8,671 nt of DNA from assembly GCA_021788495.1 (NCBI GenBank), contig JAJYKQ010000044.1:1-8671 (forward strand). Direction: 5' to 3'. This DNA is from a bacterium. GTDB lineage: Bacteria; SZUA-79; Acidulodesulfobacterales; Acidulodesulfobacteraceae. Of this stretch, positions 781 to 6,012 are shown one piece after another. Both the position numbers and the translations under genes were made by a program. A model generated the notes under the pieces. That model was given only the letters and a program-made list of their open reading frames with translations, ran no database searches and was not told the origin of the DNA. Position 1 is the stretch's first letter; each line of letters opens with the position of its first letter.

Positions 781-827
781 AAATAAAAAATGGAGGGTGT
801 AAACAAAAAAGTTTTACTGCCCTCCAT
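781..827 (-). terminator. Rho-independent terminator of the selenoprotein gene, possibly bidirectional
   Basis: ATGGAGGG (790-797) pairs with CCCTCCAT (820-827), and GTAAA (799-803) pairs with TTTAC (813-817) across a small internal loop. Read on the minus strand, the hairpin is followed at once by TTTTTTATTT (790-781), a good U-tract. On the plus strand it is followed only by ATATATTTATAT, so it may also slow transcription coming from usp. It lies between the two converging genes. Confidence 0.75.
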
Positions 828-912
828 ATATTTATATGCGCATTTAAAACTTCGCGCAGTTGAGATTTATTATATCTCTCCGCAGCAATCCGAAATGCTG
901 GCTCATTGCGCC

Positions 913-1569
913 TTATTGTTGATTATTCGCATATCCTTCCATAACTTTGCCCAAAAAAACCGATTCAGGAACTGCGCCTACTACTTCTGCAGATTCGTTC
1001 ATAACCGTTTTAGGAACGCTGAAAACTTCATATTTATCGGAAAGATTAGGAAATTCCTGAATTTCTATTATATCGGACGTAATGTTTTCGTTTGCTATAG
1101 CAAAACTGTGTGCAAGAACCGCCGCCGGCGGACAATGAGGTCAGGTAGGAGTTACGAATACCTGTATATTGTAAGGTTTTACTATTTCTTTTAATTTTTC
1201 AATCGTTTTTTCGGATAATCCCGTTTCCTTAGTAGAAACGTTAATTATTCCGTTAACTAAGGTCATAAATTCATGGCCTGCCGGCATTCCGTAAAATCTT
1301 ACTCCGTAATCTTTGTCGCCTTCTATTACGGTCGCAGGAGTTCTTTTTATGCCGTAAAGTTTAACTTTGTCGGCATCTTTGTCAAAGTCGTATTCTTCAA
1401 AACTTATTTTATCGCTTAAACCGGCAACCTCTGTAAGTATGTCCTTTACTTCATTGCAATAAAGGCAAGCATCTTCGGCTTTAAAAAAAATTAACTTAAC
1501 GTTATTTTTTAATTTTTCGTTAAAATCTTTTTTCAGAAATCCCGAATCCTGTTCGCTTAATAGAGGCAT
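913..1569 (-). CDS. Selenocysteine-containing protein disulfide oxidoreductase (glutaredoxin-like, two thioredoxin folds), TGA recoded
   Basis: The 218-residue product is read through a TGA at 1143-1141 (residue 143) to the TAA at 915-913. It matches the PDO family (archaeal-type glutaredoxin-like protein) from end to end, at about that family's usual length. The N-terminal thioredoxin fold has CLYC (Cys35, Cys38), the RTPAT cis-Pro78 loop and the family signature GMPAGHEF at 94-101. The C-terminal fold begins QVFVTPT, then TGA, then PHCPPA, where relatives have VFVTPTCPYC. It continues through AHSFAIAN to the cis-Pro loop SVPKT (Pro186). The TGA thus replaces the first, nucleophilic Cys of the catalytic CPxC, and downstream homology is unbroken. 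A GC-rich stem-loop follows the TGA. AAGGAG precedes the ATG with good spacing. PDOs reduce, oxidise or isomerise disulfides in the cytoplasm, and Sec should raise reactivity. The alternative is a pseudogene with one nonsense mutation; the exact Cys-to-TGA position argues strongly against it. Sec machinery genes (selA-D) are not in this window. Confidence 0.92.
1119..1143 (-). promoter_or_regulatory. Candidate bacterial SECIS element just after the recoded UGA
   Basis: Counting on the minus strand, UGA is at 1143-1141. CCGCC (1131-1127) pairs with GGCGG (1123-1119) around a GGC loop (1126-1124). Bacterial SECIS elements are coding-region hairpins a short way after the UGA, with a small apical loop that has G near its 5' end and is bound by SelB. 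This one fits that description, though its loop lies at the near end of the usual distance. The 13 loop and stem bases are all G/C in an AT-rich gene, using CCG and GCG codons for Pro-Pro-Ala-Ala, which suggests selection on RNA structure. Exact pairing is inferred. Confidence 0.6.
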
Positions 1570-1616
1570 TTTTTCTCCTTATTATATTTTGTTTAATTTT
1601 AATTTATCATTTTATT

Positions 1617-2466: not shown

Positions 2467-3678
2467 GTGTTTAAAAAAACCGAGACAGATTTTTGTTCTA
2501 TAGCCGATAGTTATCAGGTTTATGCAGAAAACGATGAAATCCACGGCGGAAATATACTGCAATACGGATATAAAAGCGGAATTATAGATTTTTCGGCAAA
2601 CATAAATCCCATCGGATTAAGCCCTAAAGCATCCGAAATTTTAAAAGATTTTAAAAAATTAAAATTTTTTACGGAAAATTATCCGCAGAACTATCCTGAA
2701 CTTTTTATTAACGCTTTATCATTTTATCACGGTATAGAAAAACGTTTTATATTTGCTGGAGCAGGAGCTTCGGAACTTATATTCGGCATTACCGCTAAAT
2801 TGAATCCCAAAAACGCCGTTATAATAGAACCTTCATTTTGCGAATACGAAAGAGCTGCACTTTCAAAAATTCCGCAATCTAAAATATTTCATATAAATAC
2901 TTATTTATCGGAAAATTTTGAATTAAAAGAAAAAAGCATGGCTAGGCTGTTTGAACGGTTAAACGAAAACATAGGCGAAAACGATGCCGTATTTATAGCA
3001 AGCCCTTCAAATCCTGCAGGAAAGATAACCCCGATTCAAACCATAATAAAAATACTTAAAAAACTGAAGGAAAAAAAAGCTTTTTTAATATTAGACGAAT
3101 CCTTTATGGATTTTTGCGAGGATTTTTCTGCAAAACATCTGATTGCAGGAACAAGTTTGGACGATAAAGAATCAAGCGGGACGGGAAAATTCGATAACTT
3201 AATAATAGTAAGGTCTATGACGAAATTTTTTTCTATGCCTGGACAAAGGCTCGGATACGCACTTGCAAATCCGTCGCTGATTTATAAACTTTGGGAATCG
3301 TCTGTTCCTTGGAAAATAACGTCTTTATCAGAACAGATAGCTTTTTTATCTATTAGCGATGAAAATTATATTTTAAAGTCGCTGAAATTATTAAAAGAAT
3401 TAAAAACAGATTTAGAAAATAAATTAAAAAAAATTAACTTTTTAAAAATAATATCTGGTGCGGCAAACTTTTTCTTGATAAAAATAACGGACGACGGCTT
3501 AAATGCGGAAGACGTAAAATATCATCTGCTTAAATGCGGTATATTAATAAGGCATTGCGGCAATTATAGAGGACTGAACGACAAATATTTCAGGATAGCC
3601 GTAAGAAAAAAAACGGAAAACGATTATTTAATAAGGCAGTTAAGAAAGATGGAATCGTCATTACGCAAACTGCGATAA
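2467..3678 (+). CDS. cobD: L-threonine-O-3-phosphate decarboxylase-like PLP enzyme (CobD family, HisC relative)
   Basis: A 403-residue fold-type I aminotransferase-like protein. It carries the N-terminal signature HGGNI (26-30) and DFSANINPIGLS (41-52) typical of CobD. It also has AGAGASELIF (97-106), SPSNPAGK (179-186, Asn182), the PLP-pyridine aspartate in LILDESF (Asp210), and the Schiff-base lysine in RSMTKFFSMPGQRLGY (Lys253, with Arg261 for phosphate). The substrate-carboxylate arginine is Arg380 in FRIAVR. IRHCGNYRGL (361-370) also reads more like CobD than HisC. CobD decarboxylates threonine phosphate to (R)-1-amino-2-propanol phosphate for the cobalamin lower-ligand arm. The GTG is the only start: an in-frame TAA lies directly upstream and no ATG, GTG or TTG follows before HGGN. 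There is no clear ribosome site. No other cobalamin gene is in the window, so histidinol-phosphate aminotransferase remains the alternative. Confidence 0.8.
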   Translation: MFKKTETDFCSIADSYQVYAENDEIHGGNILQYGYKSGIIDFSANINPIGLSPKASEILKDFKKLKFFTENYPQNYPELFINALSFYHGIEKRFIFAGAGASELIFGITAKLNPKNAVIIEPSFCEYERAALSKIPQSKIFHINTYLSENFELKEKSMARLFERLNENIGENDAVFIASPSNPAGKITPIQTIIKILKKLKEKKAFLILDESFMDFCEDFSAKHLIAGTSLDDKESSGTGKFDNLIIVRSMTKFFSMPGQRLGYALANPSLIYKLWESSVPWKITSLSEQIAFLSISDENYILKSLKLLKELKTDLENKLKKINFLKIISGAANFFLIKITDDGLNAEDVKYHLLKCGILIRHCGNYRGLNDKYFRIAVRKKTENDYLIRQLRKMESSLRKLR

Positions 3679-3682
3679 TATC

Positions 3683-3713
3683 TTACGAATTGAAGTAATC
3701 GTAAATTTTTTTT
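3683..3713 (+). terminator. Terminator of the plus-strand pair, embedded in the end of uvrC
   Basis: TTACGA (3683-3688) pairs with TCGTAA (3699-3704), followed by A and eight T (3706-3713). This has the form of a rho-independent terminator for the cobD-like gene, whose stop is only four bases before the hairpin. The same bases encode the last codons of uvrC on the other strand. The stem is short and AT-rich, so strength is uncertain. A second weak hairpin overlaps the cobD stop (ATTACGCA against TGCGATAAT, 3659-3679). Confidence 0.5.
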
Positions 3714-5827
3714 GCCGTTGCCTTATTTACGCCGTCAACCTCAGCTAATTCGGCTATTGAAGATTTTTTTATATTTTCCACGCTTACTAGTTTTTTTATT
3801 AAATTGCCATAAATTTTTTTCCCTACTCCGCCTATATTGAATAAGTCGGAAGAAACAAGCGATTTAGACTTAATATTGGAAAAATAAGAAACCGCAAACC
3901 TGTGCGCTTCGTCTCTTAAGCGCATAAGCATGAAAATCTGCTCTTTGTTTTTCCCGAAATTCAATTCATTTTTTCTGTTAGGCAGATAAATTTTATCGAT
4001 AGCTGTTTTCTTGAACGGATCTATTTTTTTAATTATATTTCTTTTTATATAAATGTCTTCTCTTGCGCTCATTATATTATCGTTATTATTTTCCTGTTTT
4101 TTATCATCGGAGCCGTCTAACGTATCACGTTTATTATCAATTTTATACGAATCTTTAGATTTTGCGATAGCTATAAGAGCAGGCATATTTTTTATATCTA
4201 CCTTTTCTTCTTCCATAAACTCTTTAGCCGTTTTAACCAAAACGTTAAGCTGCCCTTTGCCGCCGTCAACCATGATAACGTCCGGCAAAGGGTCTTTACC
4301 AGACGCGGCTCCTTTAAAACGCCTGTATAACGCCTCATGCATCATAGCATAGTCGTCGGGCGTATTTTTATTATGTATCCTGTAACGCCTGTATAACGAA
4401 GTATCTTTTTCTCCATTCCTTAAAACTGCCTTGGAAGCAACGGCATAAGTGCCGGAAATATTAGATATATCGAAACATTCTATAATTTCGGGAATTTTAT
4501 TTAAGCGCAAAATATCTTTTAGCAATAACAGTTTTTTAGAATTATCTTTATTTTTATCGTTATCGTTATTGCCGCTACAATGCCCTTTATTTATATATTC
4601 ATAATTAACTTCTCCGATGGATTGAGCTTTTTCTTTCTTTTCATAAGCAAACTCGGAGGCGGCATCACAGGTTTCCGAATCTGCTCCGTTTTTTTCAAAA
4701 AAATTCTTTTTTGCGTTTTCGGAAGCCATAGTAATAACCGTATCATATCTGCTTTTATTTCTTTTTTGATTTTTAGAGTCTATAATTTTAACTTTCCTGC
4801 CTGAATATTTATTTATATAAACTGAAAGGCTTTTTTTATTTTCTTCCTCTATTTTCACCGGAACAAATATCTCATCGGGAATATCGGCGTTAATTTCTAT
4901 ATTTTTTACGTAATATCTATCCAAAAAAGCAGAAAGCATTTCTGCGTCGTTAAGATAAGCATTTTTAAAAAAGAAATTTTTAGTGCCGGTAACTCTGCCG
5001 TTTCTTATAATAAGAAGCGTTATGCTTATTTTGTCGTTTTGCGAATAAAAACCGGCGGCGTCTATATCATTATCCTCATTAAATACCACAGCCTGTTTTT
5101 CGTTTATTTTAATTATAGCGTTTATTTTATCCCTTAATTTTATTGCAGCTTCGAAATTTAATTCTTTAACATACTTATCCATAGACAGTTTCATATCTTT
5201 TATTAACTGCCTGTTTTTGCCCTTTAACAGCAGCGTTATACCCTCTATGGATTTTTTATATGCGTTTATATCCGCAAACCCGCAGCACGGCCCTGAGCAC
5301 CTTTTAATTTGATAATAAAGGCATGGTTTTTTGTCGGCGGCGCAGGAATTAAACTTATTGTCGGTGCAAGTCCGCATTCTGAAAATCCTATTGACTATTT
5401 TTATGGTTTCGTTTACCGCAAAAGCGCTTGAATATGGACCGAAATAAAGCCCGTCGCCTTTTTTAAAACTTCTCGTTTTAATTATATACGGGAAGCCCGT
5501 TTTTGAATCCGCTATTTTTATGTAAGGATAGGATTTATCGTCTTTAAGGCTTATGTTGTATTTGGGCTTATATTGCTTTATGAGCGTATTTTCGAGTAAA
5601 AACGCTTCCAATTCGTTGCCGGAAATTATAGTTTCTATATCGTTTATTTTTGAAACTAAATGCTCCGTTTTTACGCCTGCATTTTTGCCGGAAAAATACT
5701 GGGAAACCCTTTTTTTTAAATTTTTTGCTTTTCCGACGTAAATTACCTCTCCGTTTATATTTTTCATAATATAAACGCCGGACGAACTTGAAATGTTTTT
5801 TATTTTGGCAAGCAAATCTTCGTTCAT
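3683..5827 (-). CDS. uvrC: UvrABC system protein C, excision nuclease subunit with two low-complexity inserts
   Basis: A 714-residue UvrC, about 100 residues longer than the roughly 560-610 usual for the family. The N-terminal GIY-YIG nuclease, which makes the 3' incision, has GVYI (17-20), IYVGKA (29-34), Arg40 and the metal ligand Glu79 in LLEN. A cysteine cluster (Cys154, Cys162, Cys169, Cys177, Cys181, Cys182) includes PCLYYQIKRCSGPC, the region tied to an iron-sulfur cluster in UvrC. The UVR helix pair that binds UvrB is at about 212-240 (VKELNFEAAIKLRD). The C-terminal RNase H-like nuclease, for the 5' incision, shows Asp453 (CFDISNISG), Asp521 (VDGGKGQL) and His642 (EAHRFA). The helix-hairpin-helix pair is at about 661-711. 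Extra Asn/Asp/Lys-rich segments sit at about 376-431 and 560-590, outside the catalytic motifs. The ATG has no good Shine-Dalgarno. It lies downstream of uvrB, 238 bases away. Confidence 0.97.
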   Translation of the reverse strand: MNEDLLAKIKNISSSSGVYIMKNINGEVIYVGKAKNLKKRVSQYFSGKNAGVKTEHLVSKINDIETIISGNELEAFLLENTLIKQYKPKYNISLKDDKSYPYIKIADSKTGFPYIIKTRSFKKGDGLYFGPYSSAFAVNETIKIVNRIFRMRTCTDNKFNSCAADKKPCLYYQIKRCSGPCCGFADINAYKKSIEGITLLLKGKNRQLIKDMKLSMDKYVKELNFEAAIKLRDKINAIIKINEKQAVVFNEDNDIDAAGFYSQNDKISITLLIIRNGRVTGTKNFFFKNAYLNDAEMLSAFLDRYYVKNIEINADIPDEIFVPVKIEEENKKSLSVYINKYSGRKVKIIDSKNQKRNKSRYDTVITMASENAKKNFFEKNGADSETCDAASEFAYEKKEKAQSIGEVNYEYINKGHCSGNNDNDKNKDNSKKLLLLKDILRLNKIPEIIECFDISNISGTYAVASKAVLRNGEKDTSLYRRYRIHNKNTPDDYAMMHEALYRRFKGAASGKDPLPDVIMVDGGKGQLNVLVKTAKEFMEEEKVDIKNMPALIAIAKSKDSYKIDNKRDTLDGSDDKKQENNNDNIMSAREDIYIKRNIIKKIDPFKKTAIDKIYLPNRKNELNFGKNKEQIFMLMRLRDEAHRFAVSYFSNIKSKSLVSSDLFNIGGVGKKIYGNLIKKLVSVENIKKSSIAELAEVDGVNKATAKKIYDYFNS

Positions 5828-5896: not shown

Positions 5897-5943
5897 GTCG
5901 GCCTTTGGCCGACTCCCCTCCTTTAAAAAGGAGGGGAGCATGG
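5897..5943. repeat. Double palindrome of GGAGGGG type, intact copy
   Basis: Two abutting perfect hairpins. GTCGGCC-TTT-GGCCGAC lies at 5897-5913. CTCCCCTCC (5913-5921) pairs with GGAGGGGAG (5930-5938), and the stem can extend through TTT/AAA. It is GC-rich in an AT-rich spacer and followed by CATGG. It resembles interspersed intergenic palindromic repeats seen in many bacterial genomes. It could also act as an RNA hairpin between uvrB and uvrC, but no U-tract follows on the minus strand. Confidence 0.7.
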
Positions 5944-5974
5944 TCACGGTAATATTTATAATCATTCAAGAACC

Positions 5975-6012
5975 GGCCGACACCACTCCTTTAAAAAATG
6001 AGGGGGCTAAGG
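5975..6012. repeat. Second, decayed copy of the GGAGGGG-type repeat
   Basis: GGCCGAC (5975-5981), then CACTCCTTTAAAAAATGAG and GGGGCTAAGG, aligns base for base with GGCCGAC through CATGG of the copy at 5907-5943. A few substitutions and one extra base break the stem: CACTCC now faces TGAGGG. Same orientation, 68 bases apart. It suggests two insertions or a local duplication followed by decay of one copy. Confidence 0.6.

Follow-up and report, generated by a model that had tools for sequence, protein, structure and literature searches.

A protein disulfide oxidoreductase with a probable selenocysteine in its C-terminal active site, conserved across an uncultured bacterial phylum

Introduction

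Of the two thioredoxin-fold units that make up a protein disulfide oxidoreductase (PDO), the C-terminal one matters most for thiol transfer. Archaeal and bacterial PDOs, including that of S. solfataricus known from the literature, carry two CxxC-type redox sites in one chain, and a passage of PMC7465337 describes them as found only in thermophiles. Forms of this family with selenocysteine (Sec) are already described: selenoprotein tables of PMC9312934 and PMC13188914 contain TIGR02187 with a UxxC motif (example ABB15282.1) and attribute it to their reference 12, table columns of PMC1794560 hold two bacterial sequences, from Carboxydothermus (C. hydrogenoformans) and Symbiobacterium, and, if read rightly, count both as Cys-to-Sec events, a passage of PMC1914089 presents CHY_0740 as a glutaredoxin-like protein with TGA, which we assume to be the same gene as ABB15282.1, while four Asgard sequences are treated in a passage of PMC11227280 as possibly newly evolved from Cys forms. 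Here, we describe an 8,671-nt stretch of bacterial DNA (contig JAJYKQ010000044.1, hereafter the window), whose minus strand encodes a two-domain PDO interrupted by an in-frame TGA, and we argue that this codon is in all probability translated as Sec143.

The published Sec members share with the window protein the NCBIfam model, the single Sec and the UxxC type of motif; the comparison drew on table entries and passages and covered the type of motif. The window protein is distinguished by its UPHC motif and by the occurrence of Sec in all gene copies found in one phylum. The novelty is modest, since Sec forms of the family have been in print since 2006 and the NCBIfam model itself is named PDO_seleno_TRX; a first-pass annotation made from the window sequence had considered, with reserve, that no Sec-containing two-domain PDO was well described, a view which both the printed members and the hint in the model name correct. 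New here are the presence of Sec in all gene copies found in one phylum, the short distance of 14 nt that separates the hairpin from the UGA, and the 89 proteins, among 205 listed, that end at the Sec residue.

Results

Reading frame and product

Starting from ATG at 1569, the minus-strand frame runs through 142 codons ending VFVTPT to TGA at 1143-1141, after which 75 sense codons beginning PHCPPAAVLAHSFAIAN lead to TAA at 915-913, exactly as the first-pass annotation had it; standard calling of open reading frames (ORFs) returns, as it had also foreseen, a 142-residue ORF (1141..1569, minus) and a spurious plus-strand one (790..1194). The read-through protein scores 266.6 bits against TIGR02187 over residues 6-211, well above the whole-protein cut-off of 185, and contains two thioredoxin-fold units and two redox motifs, namely the N-terminal C35LYC38, all-Cys as had been claimed, and the Sec variant U143PHC146 in the C-terminal unit. 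It aligns with the Pyrococcus furiosus PDO 1A8L over residues 1-211 (E 3e-51), the TGA falling on the first C of VFVTPTCPYCP, which together with the TIGR02187 score bears out the proposed identity of a PDO with an in-frame TGA at the first Cys of the C-terminal CPxC. Identity to the PDOs of P. furiosus (1A8L), A. aeolicus (2AYT) and P. horikoshii (1J08), which have Cys where the window protein has Sec at the C-terminal site, is 41-44% over 213-217 residues; the N-terminal domain of AhpF (5H29, 4O5Q, 1HYU) reaches 24-27%, and the window protein lacks the flavoprotein part. The predicted structure has a mean predicted local distance difference test score (pLDDT) of 95.0 and a predicted template modelling score (pTM) of 0.91. 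With the base composition of the stretch, chance alone would leave 75 codons free of stops in about 0.6% of cases, a figure far outweighed as evidence by the homology and by the conservation in 23 genomes described below.

Conservation of the TGA codon

Close relatives were found in 11 metagenome-assembled genomes (MAGs), all 11 with TGA at the Sec codon. The sample was then 30 genomes from the phylum of the first close relative (G001), which we take to be Acidulodesulfobacterota/Sva0485. The PDO family exceeds its cut-off in 23 of them, each with exactly one in-frame TGA; with the window they make a comparison set of 24 genes (23 different gene sequences in the genomes), where the TGA occupies the same alignment column in 24/24 and no other stop or frameshift interrupts the 23. 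The remaining seven genomes have no match over the cut-off, G020 holding a piece that ends before the TGA codon, and no Cys form of PDO was seen among the 30. Downstream of the TGA, 72-76 residues follow in frame in all 24 genes. Compared codon by codon with the window, this part differs synonymously in 443 and non-synonymously in 262 of 1587 comparisons, and the 55 codons upstream in 455 and 196, respectively, of 1265, so that variation is similar on the two sides of the TGA. Each of the same 23 genomes contains a single instance of a 25-base pattern of the site, and its reversed control occurs in 0/30. Since TGA and an intact C-terminal domain coexist in 23/23 genomes, the gene is neither a pseudogene nor the product of sequencing error; the varied stops and frameshifts named beforehand as the mark of a pseudogene are absent from all 23, a single TGA being the only interruption. 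Among the 17 papers listed by a literature search combining the presumed phylum names with selenocysteine, none contained selenocysteine.

A putative SECIS hairpin behind the TGA

All 24 genes share identical codons at +3 to +7 behind the TGA, and adjoining codons vary. Mean codon homozygosity of the ten post-TGA codons is 0.83 versus 0.58 for the other 126 columns (a value reached in 0/20,000 resamples); G/C makes up 71% of four-fold sites in codons +1 to +8 versus 43% elsewhere. The frozen codons could fold into a small stem with the loop GGC, a candidate selenocysteine insertion sequence (SECIS; Table 1). For the bacterial element (bSECIS), passages of PMC13188914 give a stem of 4-16 bp, a loop of 3-9 nt with G in the first two loop positions, a UGA-to-loop distance of 16-37 nt for most but not all elements, and an energy of at most -7.5 kcal/mol; with its 5 bp stem and GGC loop in 24/24 genes, the PDO hairpin falls within the ranges for stem, loop and loop G. 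A similar element is present in selD of the same 30 genomes, each of which has one in-frame TGA in this gene (L064-L093), followed by AGGUCC-GGA-GGACCU or a close variant, almost invariant. SelD resembles the PDO in having an in-frame TGA and then a stem with a GG-initial triloop in 30/30 genomes; it differs in being an unrelated protein and in placing the loop 17 nt behind the UGA, against 14 nt in the PDO. When at least 5 stem pairs and a GG-initial triloop at the set distance are required, such a hairpin follows 24/24 PDO and 30/30 selD TGA codons, but only 6/3999 of the remaining TGA trinucleotides of the window and of 11 loci, the background leaving out the 12 PDO sites themselves; the criterion was set after both hairpins had been seen, so this count is a description and not a blind test.

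Selenocysteine machinery

Among the 30 phylum genomes, selD exceeds its family cut-off in 30, selA in 28, selB in 27 and tRNA-Sec in 25; among the 23 with Sec-PDO, the counts are 23 for selA and selD and 20 for selB and tRNA-Sec, all four occurring together in 18. The search for Sec genes suggested by the first-pass annotation thus succeeded in most relatives' genomes, the window's own genome lying outside this count. Only over-cut-off matches were counted, because 14/14 well-known control genomes matched selB and selD at E 0.001; over the cut-offs, the controls gave selB in 2, selA in 1, selD in 2 and tRNA-Sec in 3 (5 in a looser search). As at most 98 candidates per genome were scored for tRNA-Sec, its misses are weak and not final; in G004 a fuller search likewise gave none over the cut-off. 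ARAGORN recognized tRNA-Sec with anticodon TCA in 10/10 loci submitted, the below-cut-off match of G004 (L033) not being among the 10. Two selB matches over the cut-off were found in each of two single genomes, G001 (C73, C30) and G026 (C22, C81), which may reflect duplication or mixed bins.

Shortened proteins and the wider family

Two protein searches, of which the best 120 of 1324 and the best 120 of 4792 matches were taken, listed 205 different proteins, 89 of them ending exactly before the C-terminal motif; by design, the second search favoured short proteins, and 89/205 is no estimate of frequency. Thirty-seven of the 89 are 71-100% identical to the N-terminal part of the window protein and 52 are 47-57% identical, the latter mostly 141 residues long, with one labelled as a fragment from a Zixiibacteriota bacterium. 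Such protein ends suggest that many annotated fragments may be Sec-PDOs. A tree was built on the few columns of the N-terminal part for 120 proteins, thinned at 88% identity from 201 labelled of 206 (five with no readable end were left out of the labels). To account for Sec-type and Cys-type tips it needs 12 changes, of which well-supported (starred) branches force at least 7, and of its 53 Sec-type rows 39 fall outside the clade of 14 that contains the window protein, the Sec label outside the phylum being assigned from the truncation point of the protein alone. Homologs had been expected to show Cys or TGA at this column, and they do, with TGA in the genes of the phylum and Cys outside the clade. 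A scan of viral contigs for Sec-PDOs of other lineages gave one locus (L094) with a Cys PDO (CPYC); the Sec reading of the out-of-phylum fragments therefore rests on protein ends and not on DNA. This contig of the viral collection encodes, at 3001-3800, a full Cys-type PDO with a His-rich tail, and could be host DNA within the collection.

Discussion

Frame, homology, predicted fold, conserved TGA, conserved hairpin and the Sec machinery of relatives were computed directly. Taken together they point to a PDO with two thioredoxin folds in which UGA143 is translated as Sec, a reading to which we assign a probability of about 95%; it is the best one because the relatives possess Sec machinery and because five invariant codons form a hairpin like that of selD. 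Judged from sequence, the gene would qualify as that of a bacterial selenoprotein, the UGA standing at a functional Cys of homologs and being conserved along with the sequence downstream.

Were TGA143 instead a true stop, a working 142-residue protein would be made and the remainder would be decaying. Standard gene calling does end at 142 residues, and the close relatives among the matches listed are mostly 142-aa entries, yet the post-TGA part stays in frame in 24/24 genes, reaches its stop 72-76 codons on and shows variation similar to that of the pre-TGA part, and the five codons behind the TGA are frozen, so that we regard a true stop as very improbable. Just as improbable is decoding of TGA as Trp (code 4) or as Cys by a reassigned or suppressor tRNA: seven full-length database proteins (P0002-P0008) do have W at the Sec position, as a code-4 gene caller would give and as we take them to have arisen, but TGA seems to terminate genes in the same organisms (usp of the window at 742-744; the PDO gene of L006), the loci submitted to ARAGORN encode a tRNA-Sec with anticodon TCA, and Trp could not act as nucleophile. 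Less probable still is an error of sequencing or assembly at 1143-1141, in favour of which stands just the general possibility that applies to any assembled contig; against it, the identical TGA recurs in 23 genomes whose 23 gene sequences all differ, and the exact 25-base pattern recurs in the same 23 of 30.

Several observations weigh against translation of UGA143 as Sec. The 14 nt between UGA and hairpin loop fall short of the published 16-37 nt; the energy of the hairpin is borderline, -7.0 kcal/mol when bare and -7.7 once three bases are added at both ends, against -7.5 in the model; the 64-nt fold is no more stable than shuffled sequences (z 0.24; 111/200 shuffles as good); and RNAfold favours other structures in several relatives. 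The thermodynamic test over 64 nt proved uninformative, so codon conservation and the comparison with selD were used instead. The machinery was counted in genomes of relatives and not in that of the window, and 5 of the 23 Sec-PDO genomes lack, over the cut-offs, selB (G003, G010), tRNA-Sec (G004, G023) or both (G021), for which the incompleteness of MAGs is the likely cause.

For translation of UGA143 as Sec, the following path may be proposed. The short hairpin directly 3′ of the UGA would recruit SelB with Sec-tRNA-Sec, and we infer actual Sec insertion at residue 143, giving a product with an all-thiol N-terminal site and a selenol/thiol C-terminal one. The U143 selenolate, as the probable nucleophile of the client-facing site, would attack the disulfide of a client protein or of a peroxiredoxin, and C146 would act as the resolving residue for the mixed selenenyl-sulfide. 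Electrons would come from NADPH thioredoxin reductase, possibly via the N-terminal site; passages of PMC7465337 and PMC7278568 are concordant on the electron path. Thioredoxin reductase exceeds its cut-off in 26/30 phylum genomes, but also in 12/14 control genomes.

A broader picture, towards which we lean with some reserve, is that Sec at the C-terminal site of PDOs is widespread, has been swapped with Cys many times and is mostly hidden in fragments of 141-142 residues, and that in this phylum it may have become fixed with a SECIS hairpin set unusually near the UGA (14 nt); the enzyme would work as an asymmetric relay between a thiol N-terminal and a selenol C-terminal site. These data suggest that an uncultured bacterial phylum has a selenium-dependent redox enzyme and that databases contain many copies of this enzyme shortened at the Sec codon; mending such fragments would alter the counts of selenoproteins and PDOs in environmental genomes. 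One thiol and one selenol centre within a chain would offer a natural test of the advantage of Sec over Cys.

Genomic surroundings and other features of the window

Table 1. Positions of the PDO gene and associated features in the window
Feature	Position	Strand	Basis
PDO gene with in-frame Sec codon (218 residues, Sec143)	913..1569	-	translation, TIGR02187, 1A8L alignment, structure model
TGA codon, residue 143, first position of C-terminal UPHC motif	1141..1143	-	same alignment column in 24/24 genes
N-terminal active site Cys35-Leu-Tyr-Cys38	1456..1467	-	translation
Presumed resolving Cys146 (TGT) of C-terminal site	1132..1134	-	translation and codon alignment
Putative SECIS hairpin CCGCC-GGC-GGCGG, with its loop (1126-1124) starting 14 nt 3′ of UGA	1119..1131	-	invariant third codon positions, 24/24; similar selD hairpin
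Five codons TGT CCG CCG GCG GCG (+3 to +7) with no synonymous change	1120..1134	-	24-gene comparison
Ribosome-binding-like AAGGAG just 5′ of ATG 1569	1575..1580	-	sequence; upstream stretches of relatives
Spurious antisense ORF (134 aa) overlapping the conserved PDO frame	790..1194	+	ORF list

The PDO gene is solitary, with usp (298-744, plus) convergent to it and, on its other side, a divergent gene (1703-2410, plus) that weakly matches Zn_dep_PLPC, so its neighbours are uninformative as to a partner. The divergent gene encodes 235 aa, and its match to zinc-dependent phospholipase C, 25.0 bits, is just under the Pfam cut-off of 26.8. A 20-residue ORF 3′ of the PDO stop (906-844, minus) was dropped, as visual inspection of the DNA 3′ of the gene in relatives showed no counterpart. 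The region where usp and the PDO gene converge contains an inverted repeat, ATGGAGGG...CCCTCCAT (790-827), perhaps a two-way terminator; a consensus scan did not have it in its list, and similar inverted repeats stand 3′ of the PDO gene in some relatives (L039, L041, L044, L045).

Further along, UvrC (3683-5827, minus, 714 aa) matches TIGR00194 in three stretches, which suggests insertions in the middle of the protein. Between uvrC and uvrB, positions 5907-5997 hold two copies, 91% alike, of a 23-nt repeat GGCCGAC...CTCCTTTAAAAA, resembling a small repeat element, and a perfect 12-nt inverted repeat occupies 5913-5938.
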